NCBI GenBank assembly: GCA_021399405.1
Contig: JAAFKL010000399.1
Location: 1 to 6,021, forward strand
Direction of reading: 5' to 3'
DNA: 6,021 nucleotides
Origin: Candidatus Heimdallarchaeota archaeon
GTDB lineage: Archaea; Asgardarchaeota; Heimdallarchaeia; Heimdallarchaeales; Kariarchaeaceae
This document shows, piece after piece, positions 1,432 through 6,021 of the stretch (within the stretch, counting starts at the first letter, position 1; every line of letters starts with the position of its first letter). A model generated the notes under the pieces. That model saw nothing but the letters and a program-made list of their open reading frames with translations, did not search any database and had not been told where the DNA came from. The translations under genes and the position numbers were made by a program.

Positions 1432-3282
1432 TTATTTTCTTTTTTTGTTTACAAAAACGGTTACTAACATGATTGAAGCAAAGAACATGGGTACTAGGTT
1501 CTCAATTGGTAAGAAACCACCACCAGTTACTGATTCGTATCCGGCAAGTGCCATGAATTCTTTGGCTTTCTCAATGTCAAATGGGTGATAGACAAGACTT
1601 GCGTCATACCCAGCAGCCACATCAGGCCATAGGGTGGTACTTGCAGTTCCAACTCCTTTCTTGATCACATTGACGATCTCATCTCTTGGTACAATGTGTG
1701 AAATAGCAAGTCTGACATAGTTAGCAGCTTCTGCGGCCCTTGTGGGATCATCCTCTCCTAGAGGAGTACCAACACCAGTTCCTAGAATTGGGTGCTCCAT
1801 GTTAATAGTGATGAATTGACTACCAAAATCAGCTAGGATTGTGAACGAAACTCCAGCTTGACCCTCAACTTCAGCTTTCTCCAGAACCATCTGGGGATCA
1901 ATGATTTGAGCGGTACCAGCCTTAAGATCTGCAAGTGCAGCTTCTTTGTTACCATATTTGTTGAATGAAACGGAGTTAAGTTTAGCATCTCCATTCCAGT
2001 AGGTGTCATCCTTGACAATCTTCACATTGTTAGCGGTAGCACTATATGATTCCAAAACAAATGGACCAGCACCAATGGTGTAGGTCAATGGGTCTTTATT
2101 GTAATCATAATCTACGGCAGCAGGTGAAGCGGGGGTTCCGATCACTGACATATCATAGATAGAGTAAGACATGAGCTGAACTGCTCTGAAGTAGGGATCA
2201 GCAAACTCAAACACGACTTTATCACCGTCAACTCTGATGGAGTTGTTGTAATCACCACTTGCATCCTTTGCTAGGAAAGAGGTGAGTGTACCATAACTGG
2301 TACTACCAACTGCGGGAGTTAGATGCATTTGATATGTGTTAACAACATCTGCTGCAGTAACGGGATTACCGTTTGAGAATTTTGCATCAGGATTCAATGT
2401 AACTGTTGCAATGGTGTTGTCTGCATTCCATGTTGGCAAAGCAGATGCAATCATAGGTCCATAGGCAAAGCCTGCATTAGCAGGACTTCTCTCAAATAGA
2501 CCACCCATTACTGGTGCTAACCAAGCCCAAGTAATATAGGATTGTGCAATGAATGGGGTGAACTCAGTCAATTCATAAGAGTGAGCATACACGATATCTG
2601 TTTCAGTACCAACCTCAATGTTCTTCCAACCATCAGCATACTGGGTCTGTGAGAGCATTAACCAGTCATCATCAGAGATCTGAGTAGATGTGATTTCATC
2701 ACTATAGGCCCATAGTCCAGCTGTGTTTATCAGTGGGATATATGGGAGTTGGGTTGCAAGTGCTCCTTGGATCTTCTCTGCAATGGGAACCCTTTTGGCA
2801 GGATCAAGCTCTGAAGAGTACTCTGCTAGCCATGCGTCAACTGTGGCATTAGAGTAGTGTGCCATGTTGTCACTGGATGGTGAGAATGTAGTAGAGCTAT
2901 GAATGGCAAATGGATCATAATCTATTTCTCCAGACCAACCTACGAAGAACATATCGAATCCACCATCATCATAGGTGGGCAATTCTCCGTCTTCATAGCC
3001 TTCTGTGGTGCCATCAGCGGGGTGAGCATAGGTTTTTGGACCTAGTACGTCCCAACCGACGTTTTCATAGGATTTCACTCCAATTCCGATTTTTGGTAGT
3101 GTCTCCGCGATTAGTTCTGACCATGTATTTCTTGCTGGGTTAGTATTAGGTGCTAACACAGTAATTTCAAATACAGCGTCAGGGAAATCTTCATCTTGAG
3201 CTGAAACTTGTAGTGTACCAATTGCCATAGCAGAGACAATGAGTATATACAAAACAGCAGATGTAAATAATTTTACTTTCAT
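1432..3282 (-). CDS. Secreted, membrane-anchored ABC transporter solute-binding protein, family 5 (DppA/OppA-like), segments in permuted order
   Basis: A 616-aa extracytoplasmic binding protein of the peptide/nickel family (SBP_bac_5), expected to deliver a peptide-like or oligosaccharide ligand to the divergently encoded permeases. Residues 1-28 form a Sec signal peptide ending VSA before QD; there is no lipobox cysteine. Residues 36-197 match the normally C-terminal part: GIGVKSYENVGWDVL (66-80), FDMFFVGWSGEIDYDPF (109-125), MAHYSNATVDAWLAEYS (140-156), LDPAKR (159-164) and LPYIPL (179-184). Residues 228-583 match the normally N-terminal part: KFSNGNPVTAADVV (301-314), IGAGPFVLESY (403-413), VRLAISHIVPRDEIV (523-537) and DIEKAKEFMALAGYE (569-583). 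The order is thus that of a circular permutation. A GGG linker, LPIEN, a hydrophobic helix (about 594-611) and KKRK form a C-terminal anchor resembling archaeal CTERM sorting tails. The ATG at 3282 is preceded by a weak AGGA sequence 10 nt upstream. Family membership is firm; the ligand is unknown. Confidence 0.93.
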   Translation of the reverse strand: MKVKLFTSAVLYILIVSAMAIGTLQVSAQDEDFPDAVFEITVLAPNTNPARNTWSELIAETLPKIGIGVKSYENVGWDVLGPKTYAHPADGTTEGYEDGELPTYDDGGFDMFFVGWSGEIDYDPFAIHSSTTFSPSSDNMAHYSNATVDAWLAEYSSELDPAKRVPIAEKIQGALATQLPYIPLINTAGLWAYSDEITSTQISDDDWLMLSQTQYADGWKNIEVGTETDIVYAHSYELTEFTPFIAQSYITWAWLAPVMGGLFERSPANAGFAYGPMIASALPTWNADNTIATVTLNPDAKFSNGNPVTAADVVNTYQMHLTPAVGSTSYGTLTSFLAKDASGDYNNSIRVDGDKVVFEFADPYFRAVQLMSYSIYDMSVIGTPASPAAVDYDYNKDPLTYTIGAGPFVLESYSATANNVKIVKDDTYWNGDAKLNSVSFNKYGNKEAALADLKAGTAQIIDPQMVLEKAEVEGQAGVSFTILADFGSQFITINMEHPILGTGVGTPLGEDDPTRAAEAANYVRLAISHIVPRDEIVNVIKKGVGTASTTLWPDVAAGYDASLVYHPFDIEKAKEFMALAGYESVTGGGFLPIENLVPMFFASIMLVTVFVNKKRK

Positions 3283-3952: not shown

Positions 3953-5038
3953 ATGACAGAAGAAAATGAAATGATAGTCGAAAATACAAGCCTTTTTGAA
4001 AAGGTAAAAATATTTTTCACAAATAGAGTTGTCATATATACCATTAGAAGGTTACTTGTCATGATACCTCTATTTTTCGGTGTATCATTAATTACATTTT
4101 CCATGTCAAAAGCAATTGGTGACCCGACAGATCAGGTACTGGGCCTTGGAAGAGGAAGAGAACTTGCCATTGAGATTATCAAACAGCAATATGGACTTGA
4201 TCAACCAATTCATATTCAGTATTTCAAATGGCTGGAAAATTTTGTTACTTGGAAATTTGGTTATTCAGGGATTTACAAGGTTAAAGATCCCTCTGATATC
4301 ATAAATGAACTCATCTACCAGACTGCAAAGATGCAGTATTCATCGATATTCCTAGCATTAGCAATAGCTATACCACTTGGTATAATTGCTGCCAAGAACA
4401 GGGGTTCAAATTTGGATACAGCTGTATCAGGAATAGCATTATTGGGTCTTTCAATGCCGATTTTTGTTTCTGGCATTATTCTTATCTTAATTTTTGGTGG
4501 TGGTGGATTAAATTGGTTCCCAGTTGCGGGTGCAAATACACCTCATCGGGAGGAGGTGAATTGGTCGGTATTCTTTGAAAATTTTAGCTATCAATGGTCC
4601 TTGCTTTGGGATAATATAGCAGATTCAAATCTACATCTAACTCTACCATTAATTGCTCTTACTTTTGCATTTTTAGCATTAAACACTAGATTGGTAAGAT
4701 CTAATATGCTTGAGGTACTAAATCAGGACTATATTCTGGCGGCAAGGGCAAATGGGATAAAAGAGAGTGTAATTATCTGGAGGCATGCCCTTAGGAATGC
4801 CATATTGCCTGTAGTTACATTTGTTGGCTTATCAATTGGAGCAGCCCTTGGAGGTGCCCCGATTACAGAAACAGTATTCGCATGGCCAGGATTAGGGAAG
4901 GTATACATATCAGCAATATTTTTGCTAGATATGTCATTGGTGCTGGGAATAACAATGATCATAACACTGTTAATTCTATTTTCCAATCTAATTACTGACC
5001 TGTTGTATGCGGTCATTGATCCTAGGATCACTATTTAG
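3953..5038 (+). CDS. dppB: ABC transporter permease, DppB/OppB family
   Basis: A 361-aa inner-membrane permease of the peptide/nickel importer family, one half of the translocation channel. The N-terminal helix with IRRLLVMIPLFFGVSLITF (residues 31-49) is the typical DppB start, preceded by a cytosolic tail of about 25 residues. LDQPIHIQYFKWL (82-94) and FGYS (102-105) match the family's extracellular segment. A conserved LNWFPVAGANTP (186-197) precedes a long polar loop. The EAA motif that contacts the ATPase is at 260-287, with YILAARANGIKESVI (260-274) and WRHALRNAILPVV (276-288). The C-terminal TETVFAWPGLGKVY (305-318) and DPRI are also family hallmarks. The gene is followed by dppC after 10 bp. 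Its binding protein is encoded divergently. The symbol denotes the family, not a proven dipeptide substrate. Confidence 0.94.
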   Translation: MTEENEMIVENTSLFEKVKIFFTNRVVIYTIRRLLVMIPLFFGVSLITFSMSKAIGDPTDQVLGLGRGRELAIEIIKQQYGLDQPIHIQYFKWLENFVTWKFGYSGIYKVKDPSDIINELIYQTAKMQYSSIFLALAIAIPLGIIAAKNRGSNLDTAVSGIALLGLSMPIFVSGIILILIFGGGGLNWFPVAGANTPHREEVNWSVFFENFSYQWSLLWDNIADSNLHLTLPLIALTFAFLALNTRLVRSNMLEVLNQDYILAARANGIKESVIIWRHALRNAILPVVTFVGLSIGAALGGAPITETVFAWPGLGKVYISAIFLLDMSLVLGITMIITLLILFSNLITDLLYAVIDPRITI

Positions 5039-5041
5039 GGG
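5037..5041 (+). promoter_or_regulatory. Shine-Dalgarno sequence of the dppC-like gene
   Basis: AGGGG overlaps the TAG stop of dppB (5036-5038) and lies 7 nt before the ATG at 5049. It supports that start over the in-frame ATG at 5136 and suggests translational coupling of the two permease genes. Confidence 0.6.
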
Positions 5042-5048
5042 TATAATA

Positions 5049-6021
5049 ATGAGTAATAAAAATCAAAGAATCAATTTCAATCGCGATCTGGATATCGCGG
5101 GTTCAGTTACATTAAGGGAGGGAACAAAATTGGATATGAATCTTAAATCAGATACTTGGTACCATACGGTGTCAAATAGACTGAAGGAGAATAAACCTGC
5201 ATTATATAGTCTTTACTATGTATATGCCATGATATTACTGGCAATTTTTTATCCCCTCCTTCTTCCTGTTAGACCAACCAATACAGGGCCGTTATACGGG
5301 ACAACTTGGGGAAGCGGGAGTACATCATACCCCAATCTCAGGCATCCCTTCGGGACAGCTGCAGTGGGAAAGGATATCCTGTCGCAGTTATTAGCTGGAA
5401 CAGAAACCAGTATGATTGTAGGGTTTGGTTCAGTTATAATATTTCTATCAATTGGTATACCAATTGGTCTAGTGTCAGGGTATTATGGTGGAAAAAGAGA
5501 AGAATTTTTAATGAGATTTACCGATTTCTTCATTGCCTTACCCTTCTTGATATTCGCTATATTAGCAATTAATATTGTTAAAAACTCCAACTCAGAATTT
5601 TTAAATAACATACCTGTGGTTATGATCATATTAATAGCCTTGGGAATTTTTGGTTGGGCTGGAACTGCGAGATTGGTAAATGCAACAACCAAACAAGTTA
5701 ATAATCTAGAATATATTTCAGCTGCTAGAGTACTCGGAGCTTCAGATAGGAGAATTCTAAGAAGACATATTCTGCCCAATATACTGGCACCTATCATAGT
5801 TGTCGCCACTATTGGTGTAGGTGGAGGAATTCTATCAGAAGCAGGTCTAACCTTTCTTGGATTTGGTGATGCCAATAAAGATGTATCATGGGGTACAGTA
5901 ATCCAAAATGGTACTACCTTTGTATCTTTGCATCCACAGATTTCTCTATCAGCAGGATTTATGGTATTCTTCGTAACCATGGCCATAAATCTCTTTGGCG
6001 ATGCTATTAGAGATGCACTCG
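5049..6021 (+). CDS. dppC: ABC transporter permease, DppC/OppC family, 3' end cut by the window edge
   Basis: The frame from ATG 5049 stays open to the right edge (324 codons seen), so no stop is visible. It encodes the second membrane subunit of the peptide-type importer. A long polar N-terminal tail (about residues 1-52) leads into the first helix (LYSLYYVYAMILLAIF, 52-67). The periplasmic family motif is HPFGTAAVGKDILSQLLAG (99-117), in which the usual GTDxxGRD reads GTAAVGKD. The EAA motif is at 222-251, with YISAARVLGASDRRIL (222-237) and RRHILPNILAPI (238-249). SEAGLTFLGFGDANKDVSWG (263-282) is the typical late DppC signature, followed by part of the last helix. Start choice rests on the Shine-Dalgarno sequence at 5037-5041. 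Only a few residues of the conserved C-terminus should be missing. ATPase genes (dppD/dppF-like) would be expected next, outside the window. Confidence 0.93.
   Translation, partial: MSNKNQRINFNRDLDIAGSVTLREGTKLDMNLKSDTWYHTVSNRLKENKPALYSLYYVYAMILLAIFYPLLLPVRPTNTGPLYGTTWGSGSTSYPNLRHPFGTAAVGKDILSQLLAGTETSMIVGFGSVIIFLSIGIPIGLVSGYYGGKREEFLMRFTDFFIALPFLIFAILAINIVKNSNSEFLNNIPVVMIILIALGIFGWAGTARLVNATTKQVNNLEYISAARVLGASDRRILRRHILPNILAPIIVVATIGVGGGILSEAGLTFLGFGDANKDVSWGTVIQNGTTFVSLHPQISLSAGFMVFFVTMAINLFGDAIRDAL

Follow-up and report, generated by a model that had tools for sequence, protein, structure and literature searches.

Does the binding-protein gene on the minus strand of this 6,021-nucleotide stretch of a Candidatus Heimdallarchaeota contig (JAAFKL010000399.1; the whole stretch is referred to here as the window) encode a solute-binding protein (SBP) of family 5 whose segments stand in exchanged order, as an earlier note on the letters alone had proposed, and if so, how did that order come about? 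Family 5 or cluster C SBPs include DppA, OppA, NikA and GsiB (Pfam PF00496), and the window protein is homologous to them in both of its blocks and is likewise accompanied by adjacent OppB/OppC-type permeases; compared with these proteins, however, it is circularly permuted and starts and stops at the AGY loop. At the level of sequence, the gene product is confirmed as a family 5 SBP in circularly permuted order. A natural circular permutant is very probably the best explanation of the locus as one whole, and around it we infer the fold, the importer role, the anchor, the origin and the history of the protein. The gene and its parts are as follows.

1432..3282, minus strand: gene of the permuted family 5 SBP, 616 aa (open reading frame, ORF; SBP_bac_5 match; two blocks in exchanged order)
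3196..3282, minus strand: N-terminal hydrophobic signal-like segment, residues 1-29 (sequence; helix 2-30 in the model, with low confidence there)
2626..3183, minus strand: C-block, residues 34-219, corresponding to the final third of a canonical family 5 chain, at about 361-507 of the profile (sequence and profile matches)
2602..2667, minus strand: residues 206-227, in which the C-terminus of the canonical chain is linked to its N-terminus (alignments; boundary approximate)
1537..2607, minus strand: N-block, residues 226-582, corresponding to the initial two thirds of a canonical family 5 chain, at 43-364 of the profile, with AGY at its end (sequence and profile matches, structure comparison)
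1438..1536, minus strand: short linker, then hydrophobic helix 596-615, then KKRK, residues 583-615; likely membrane anchor (sequence; helix 596-615 in the model, with low confidence there)
2920..2922, minus strand: Asp121, aligned to an Asp common in family 5 (alignment)

The ORF list agrees with the earlier note on the reading frame, its strand and its length, and the positions at which it placed four motifs (K301, I403, V523 and A573) agree with the alignments. SBP_bac_5 was the sole match of the window protein among 24736 Pfam models at E-values up to 1, with 185.8 bits against a curated cut-off of 32.4, and it matched in two stretches. A canonical profile made from 37 relatives (P0031-P0067) aligned to residues 33-203 at its positions 361-507 (55 bits) and to residues 226-587 at its positions 43-364 (179 bits); the two ranges are complementary, so that both canonical parts are present but the canonical order is not. 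E. coli YliB (1uqw) alone aligned by its chain positions 162-341 to residues 384-583 (i-Evalue 8e-6) and by 395-498 to residues 105-205 (4.4e-7). Two profile matches in exchanged order were what the earlier note had predicted. With the same canonical profile, 14 of 14 control loci, picked for a long uninterrupted SBP_bac_5 match, showed the canonical order, as did the 37 proteins from which the profile was built, which are not an independent control. As the canonical order was not found in it, the window protein was filed as a permuted variant rather than as a standard SBP_bac_5 member.

The best SBP_bac_5 stretch, at residues 275-594, could be taken to mean that an unrelated domain comes first, with a complete canonical family 5 domain behind it. 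That stretch, however, covers only positions 3-288 of the 368 of the Pfam profile, the remainder is matched by residues 33-203, and beyond residue 587 nothing follows but a short linker and a hydrophobic helix. The two-block alignments refute this reading, which we consider extremely improbable: where the earlier note had allowed that residues 36-200 might prove unrelated, residues 33-203 are the missing part of family 5.

The breakpoint lies between the helix that ends in AGY and the following beta strand (FxITLL). The old termini would have been joined and the chain cut at the AGY loop, which would bring the canonical last third to the front. In the bacterial permuted members that were printed, the chain stops within about three residues of AGY and the N-terminal segments are Tat-like (twin-arginine translocation), with which the source names of two listed proteins agree, while the archaeal permuted members continue after AGY with a linker and a hydrophobic, anchor-like segment. 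The new C-terminus of the window protein appears to bear a membrane anchor and, since this anchor is on the new end, the tether would exit at the cut site and not at the usual C-terminal end. One Bathyarchaeota permuted protein (L059, 5890-9120), whose open frame spans 1077 aa, has a long extra C-terminal region beyond AGY.

The permuted chain would adopt the usual two-lobed fold of binding proteins. Structure comparison of the predicted model showed the family 5 fold for the N-block, and when the whole model was compared by sequential aligners essentially the N-block only was covered. Two results weigh against the reading of the protein as a folded permutant: the C-block modelled alone was poor (predicted local distance difference test, pLDDT, 67.5; predicted template modelling score, pTM, 0.42), and no solved permuted member was found among 60 of the 109 PDB matches. 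Comparison of the C-block model gave at least 3 rows of 50 outside family 5 (two fragments of ribose-binding proteins and one viral endonuclease).

Is the exchanged order peculiar to this contig? Among the 67 proteins of a homologue search, it was found in P0001-P0016 and P0027-P0030, and the canonical order in P0017-P0026 (P0024 being a fragment); 16 of the permuted proteins align end to end (P0028 without its end), with a hydrophobic N-terminal segment preceding the C-block. A second search with 16 diverse permuted queries found 344 proteins, and all of the 120 listed among them are permuted. The order and breakpoint of the window protein are present in 140 of the 187 homologues collected, besides 19 isolated N-blocks and 3 isolated C-blocks. 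Scanning contigs with an alignment of permuted proteins gave 79 genome loci with 97 ORFs that match the canonical profile, and these comprise 86 permuted ORFs, one permuted ORF with a split N-block, 8 with the N-block only and 2 with the C-block only; scanning with the window sequence alone gave 30 stretches, none of which was confirmed. As the homologue searches started from permuted proteins, the share of permuted members says nothing on family 5 overall.

By record titles, the archaeal carriers are Heimdallarchaeota, Bathyarchaeota, Methanomethylicota/Methanosuratincola, Nitrososphaeria and Asgard LC30, and the bacterial ones are Alphaproteobacteria (Acetobacteraceae, Belnapia mucosa, Paracraurococcus ruber, Neoroseomonas marina, Rhodovarius and Sinirhodobacter populi) and one Desulfobacterales genome. 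Plasmid records gave two matches over 95% of the query, both permuted and both on closed plasmids (Salipiger sp. CCB-MM3 and Neorhizobium sp. NCHU2750); phage records gave partial matches in 3 records. Genome samples, each containing its source genome and searched at strict E-value limits, had the gene in 6 of 100 genomes of the family of Belnapia, in 7 of 101 genomes of the phylum of a Bathyarchaeota genome (six of the seven loci permuted, the seventh with the N-block only) and in 1 of 59 genomes of the phylum of the Desulfobacterales genome. At these limits, the distribution outside Asgard archaea looks patchy. A further permuted group, deeper and diverged, has members of about 610-730 aa (L153, L156, L157, L162-L165, L169); L157, the sole member scanned, had no NCBIfam match at E-values up to 1e-10.

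As the permuted gene of the window is known from a stretch of only 6 kb, it could in principle be one piece of a longer tandem protein, or the contig could be chimeric. Against this, the same order occurs in single genes of many assemblies, including the two closed plasmids of bacterial isolates, and in these relatives the C-block is preceded by a hydrophobic segment at the N-terminus, while the chain ends soon after AGY or after the anchor. For the family, such single-gene relatives refute an artefact or a fragment, and we give this reading almost no credence. The earlier note had named a fragment of a tandem protein as what would undo its proposal, and had suggested a search of archaeal genomes for homologues with the same order; the close homologues are single genes in that order, which is not unique to the window and extends to bacteria. 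A circular permutation within family 5 is therefore borne out by the sequence, by many relatives that share one breakpoint and, for the larger block, by the predicted structure.

Did the order change only once? For the trees, the proteins were cut at the breakpoint and the N- and C-blocks were aligned separately. In a 109-row tree, the permuted proteins and 13 canonical Asgard proteins form one clade (99 in the Shimodaira-Hasegawa-like approximate likelihood ratio test, SH-aLRT), and an Asgard clade of 54 rows (100) includes the 13 canonical ones (99), which adjoin the Kariarchaeaceae proteins, that of the window included (93). Trees of either block alone are alike in outline (N-block and C-block respectively: Asgard clade 99 and 98; canonical Asgard with Kariarchaeaceae 87 and 62), a careful 44-row tree gave 100/99 and 91/79 for the same two groups, and under a simpler model the single-block trees keep this outline, with several groups weaker and the canonical Asgard proteins at 23.4/78 in the C-block. 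A single clade of all permuted proteins was rejected by the approximately unbiased (AU) test with 44 rows (p 0.0004), with 52 rows including a deeper permuted group, PER2 (p 2e-14), and with 37 rows that exclude bacteria, PER2 and long outgroup rows and contain no terminal branch flagged as long (p 0.0001). In these sequence trees, the canonical-order Asgard proteins nest within the permuted clade, which is new here, and since a single permuted clade is rejected, the order changed at least twice. The earlier note was right about the permutation, but it foresaw neither the nesting nor the repeated change.

Two other sources of the nesting were considered. The canonical Asgard proteins might have been hybrids, their two blocks differing in history, but they take the same place in the trees of both blocks, which gives no sign of this. 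As for long-branch attraction, the 37-row set without flagged branches still rejects one permuted clade, although the canonical Asgard and Kariarchaeaceae branch has only 57/29 there.

The canonical Asgard relatives P0017-P0026 show 31-44% identity to the window protein over 28-61% of its length and, together with L110-L116, share an LSPNTNPARN-type motif with the permuted proteins. Permuted paralogues are also present in genomes with canonical Asgard members (G007, G037, G038 and G039), where some of the C-block matches are weak (2 to 52 bits). Whereas the window protein is permuted, P0017-P0026 and L110-L116 have the canonical order and a breakpoint linker of 20-28 residues (13 rows measured, median 21); elsewhere the median is 7. 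Such linkers could be the scar of a reversion, as rejoined old ends might leave them, but they are suggestive only and not diagnostic, because the loop that follows AGY measures 5-20 residues in 35 rows of other canonical proteins and some of these thus reach 20.

The least costly history would be one early permutation and one return to the canonical order in an Asgard sublineage. Gain and reversion make two events, against three for gains alone when PER2 is included, and on this ground of parsimony we somewhat favour the view that the canonical order was regained in an Asgard lineage. The wider account is held with similarly modest confidence: the permutation would have arisen once and early, be common to Asgard archaea, TACK-type archaea and proteobacteria, have given rise to paralogue arrays in Heimdallarchaeota, and have been reversed at the same site in one Asgard lineage. 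Perhaps, instead, canonical ancestors underwent two or three independent changes of order at one loop and the canonical Asgard proteins were never permuted, which seems to us rather unlikely. In its favour, the grouping of the Heimdallarchaeota and Kariarchaeaceae permuted proteins as one clade was not rejected with 44 rows (p 0.27), and with that branching and without PER2 two gains cost the same as a gain and a reversion; moreover, the variable length of the AGY loop in other canonical proteins may mark a permissive site. The same side is served by the uneven support for the branch of canonical Asgard and Kariarchaeaceae proteins (93; 87, 62; 91/79; 46.5/50, 91.1/91; 57/29), and by the 52-row and 37-row trees, which did not resolve the branching order within the Asgard clade; together, these points weigh against a reversion. 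On the other hand, once PER2, with its partly weak C-block matches, is included, independent gains need at least three events at one site in place of two, and the long linkers may also speak for the early permutation followed by a return.

As for the origin, a tandem duplication or a fusion, followed by new ends, may have produced the permuted gene. This keeps the duplication-fusion route of the earlier note as a conjecture; no tandem intermediate (N-C-N-C or C-N-C) was found among the ORFs examined. One degenerate copy, a partial N-block followed by a C-block, lies just upstream of a canonical gene (L146, 22-849). Duplication and fission-fusion are the two main models of circular permutation, with saposin and swaposin as an example (PMC3320104), and among the permuted family 5 ORFs examined a tandem intermediate did not turn up; the main text of that review holds no word beginning with "revers".

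No permuted family 5 protein was found in the partial listings of the open-licence PubMed Central literature, in line with the earlier note, which knew of none. A naturally permuted SBP has been solved in cluster B, namely TpMglB-2 (Tp0684) of Treponema (PMC4990184). It is likewise a natural permutation, but of a cluster B glucose-binding fold, with the first strands of the N-lobe near the C-terminus, and the window protein showed no homology to cluster B sugar-binding proteins, SBP_bac_5 being its only Pfam match at E-values up to 1. In the available parts of that paper, a return to the canonical order is not described; the "cluster Bc" or "type Ic" proteins are given as probably tethered in most carriers, and tethering is suggested as a possible reason for the permutation. 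The bacterial permuted members printed here are without a C-terminal anchor; for permuted family 5, this speaks against tethering being the only reason.

What would such a protein do? Two genes that diverge from it in the window bear on this:

3953..5038, plus strand: OppB/DppB-type permease, divergent from the binding protein (BPD_transp_1; best NCBIfam match Opp2B, under its curated cut-off)
5007..6020, plus strand: OppC/DppC-type permease, running off the window, with an alternative start ATG at 5050 (BPD_transp_1, OppC_N; best NCBIfam match Opp4C, under its curated cut-off)

Judged from the sequence and the neighbouring genes, the window protein is most likely the binding protein of the adjacent OppB/OppC-type importer, held by its C-terminal membrane helix. 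Outside the cell, it would bind a peptide or a similar solute, which would then pass to the importer. Window-like permeases (BLASTP, E-values up to 1e-8) were found at 30 of the 73 loci with a usable permuted gene, including 11 titled Bathyarchaeota or MCG (Miscellaneous Crenarchaeotal Group) with divergent permeases as in the window. Speaking against an importer role in general, the other 43 loci, 34 of them Asgard-titled, had no such permease nearby, and many permuted copies may thus be orphan binding proteins or otherwise employed. Among loci with Heimdallarchaeota titles, only L001 had the permeases. Tandem arrays of two or three permuted genes, with no window-like permease in the stretch, were present in Heimdallarchaeota loci L003, L009, L019, L022, L027 and others, and two such genomes had 16 and 30 SBP_bac_5 matches (split pieces counted). 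The Salipiger and Neorhizobium plasmids (L178, L179) have operons of two permeases, an ATPase and the binding protein, in variable gene order, adjoined by genes for flavin-dependent monooxygenases (LLM or luciferase-like type and nitrilotriacetate type), which hint at a non-peptide ligand. In L179, a canonical-order family 5 gene lies about 3.4 kb beyond the permuted operon.

An Asp at the position of Asp121 was present in 41 of 55 archaeal and in 0 of 6 bacterial permuted rows, in 13 of 13 canonical Asgard rows and in 13 of 35 other canonical rows. In OppA and DppA, the amino group of the peptide is bound by an Asp that we take to be this one; on that premise, its absence from the bacterial permuted rows would suggest that their ligands may be non-peptide.

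At the other end of the window, a nucleotidyltransferase-like ORF (2-692, its 5' end open) adjoins a gene for a CTP-dependent riboflavin kinase on the opposite strand, and the two are a possible archaeal flavin cofactor pair. A Translin-family protein is encoded at 706-1314 (28.7 bits in Pfam; NCBIfam group PRK14562, under the cut-off).

The circular permutation of family 5 binding proteins is thus real and widespread, and one clade contains both orders. As both orders occur in one large family, with up to 44% identity across the change, they can be aligned and compared, and the reversibility of circular permutation, the permissiveness of the site and the effect of a moved membrane tether on transport become testable now. 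Existing annotations call the permuted members ordinary binding proteins, and profile libraries and sequential structure aligners detect mainly their larger block. The bacterial members, present in isolates, offer structural work a natural source of permuted scaffolds. If the reversion is true, the normal-order proteins of that Asgard lineage would be former permuted proteins.
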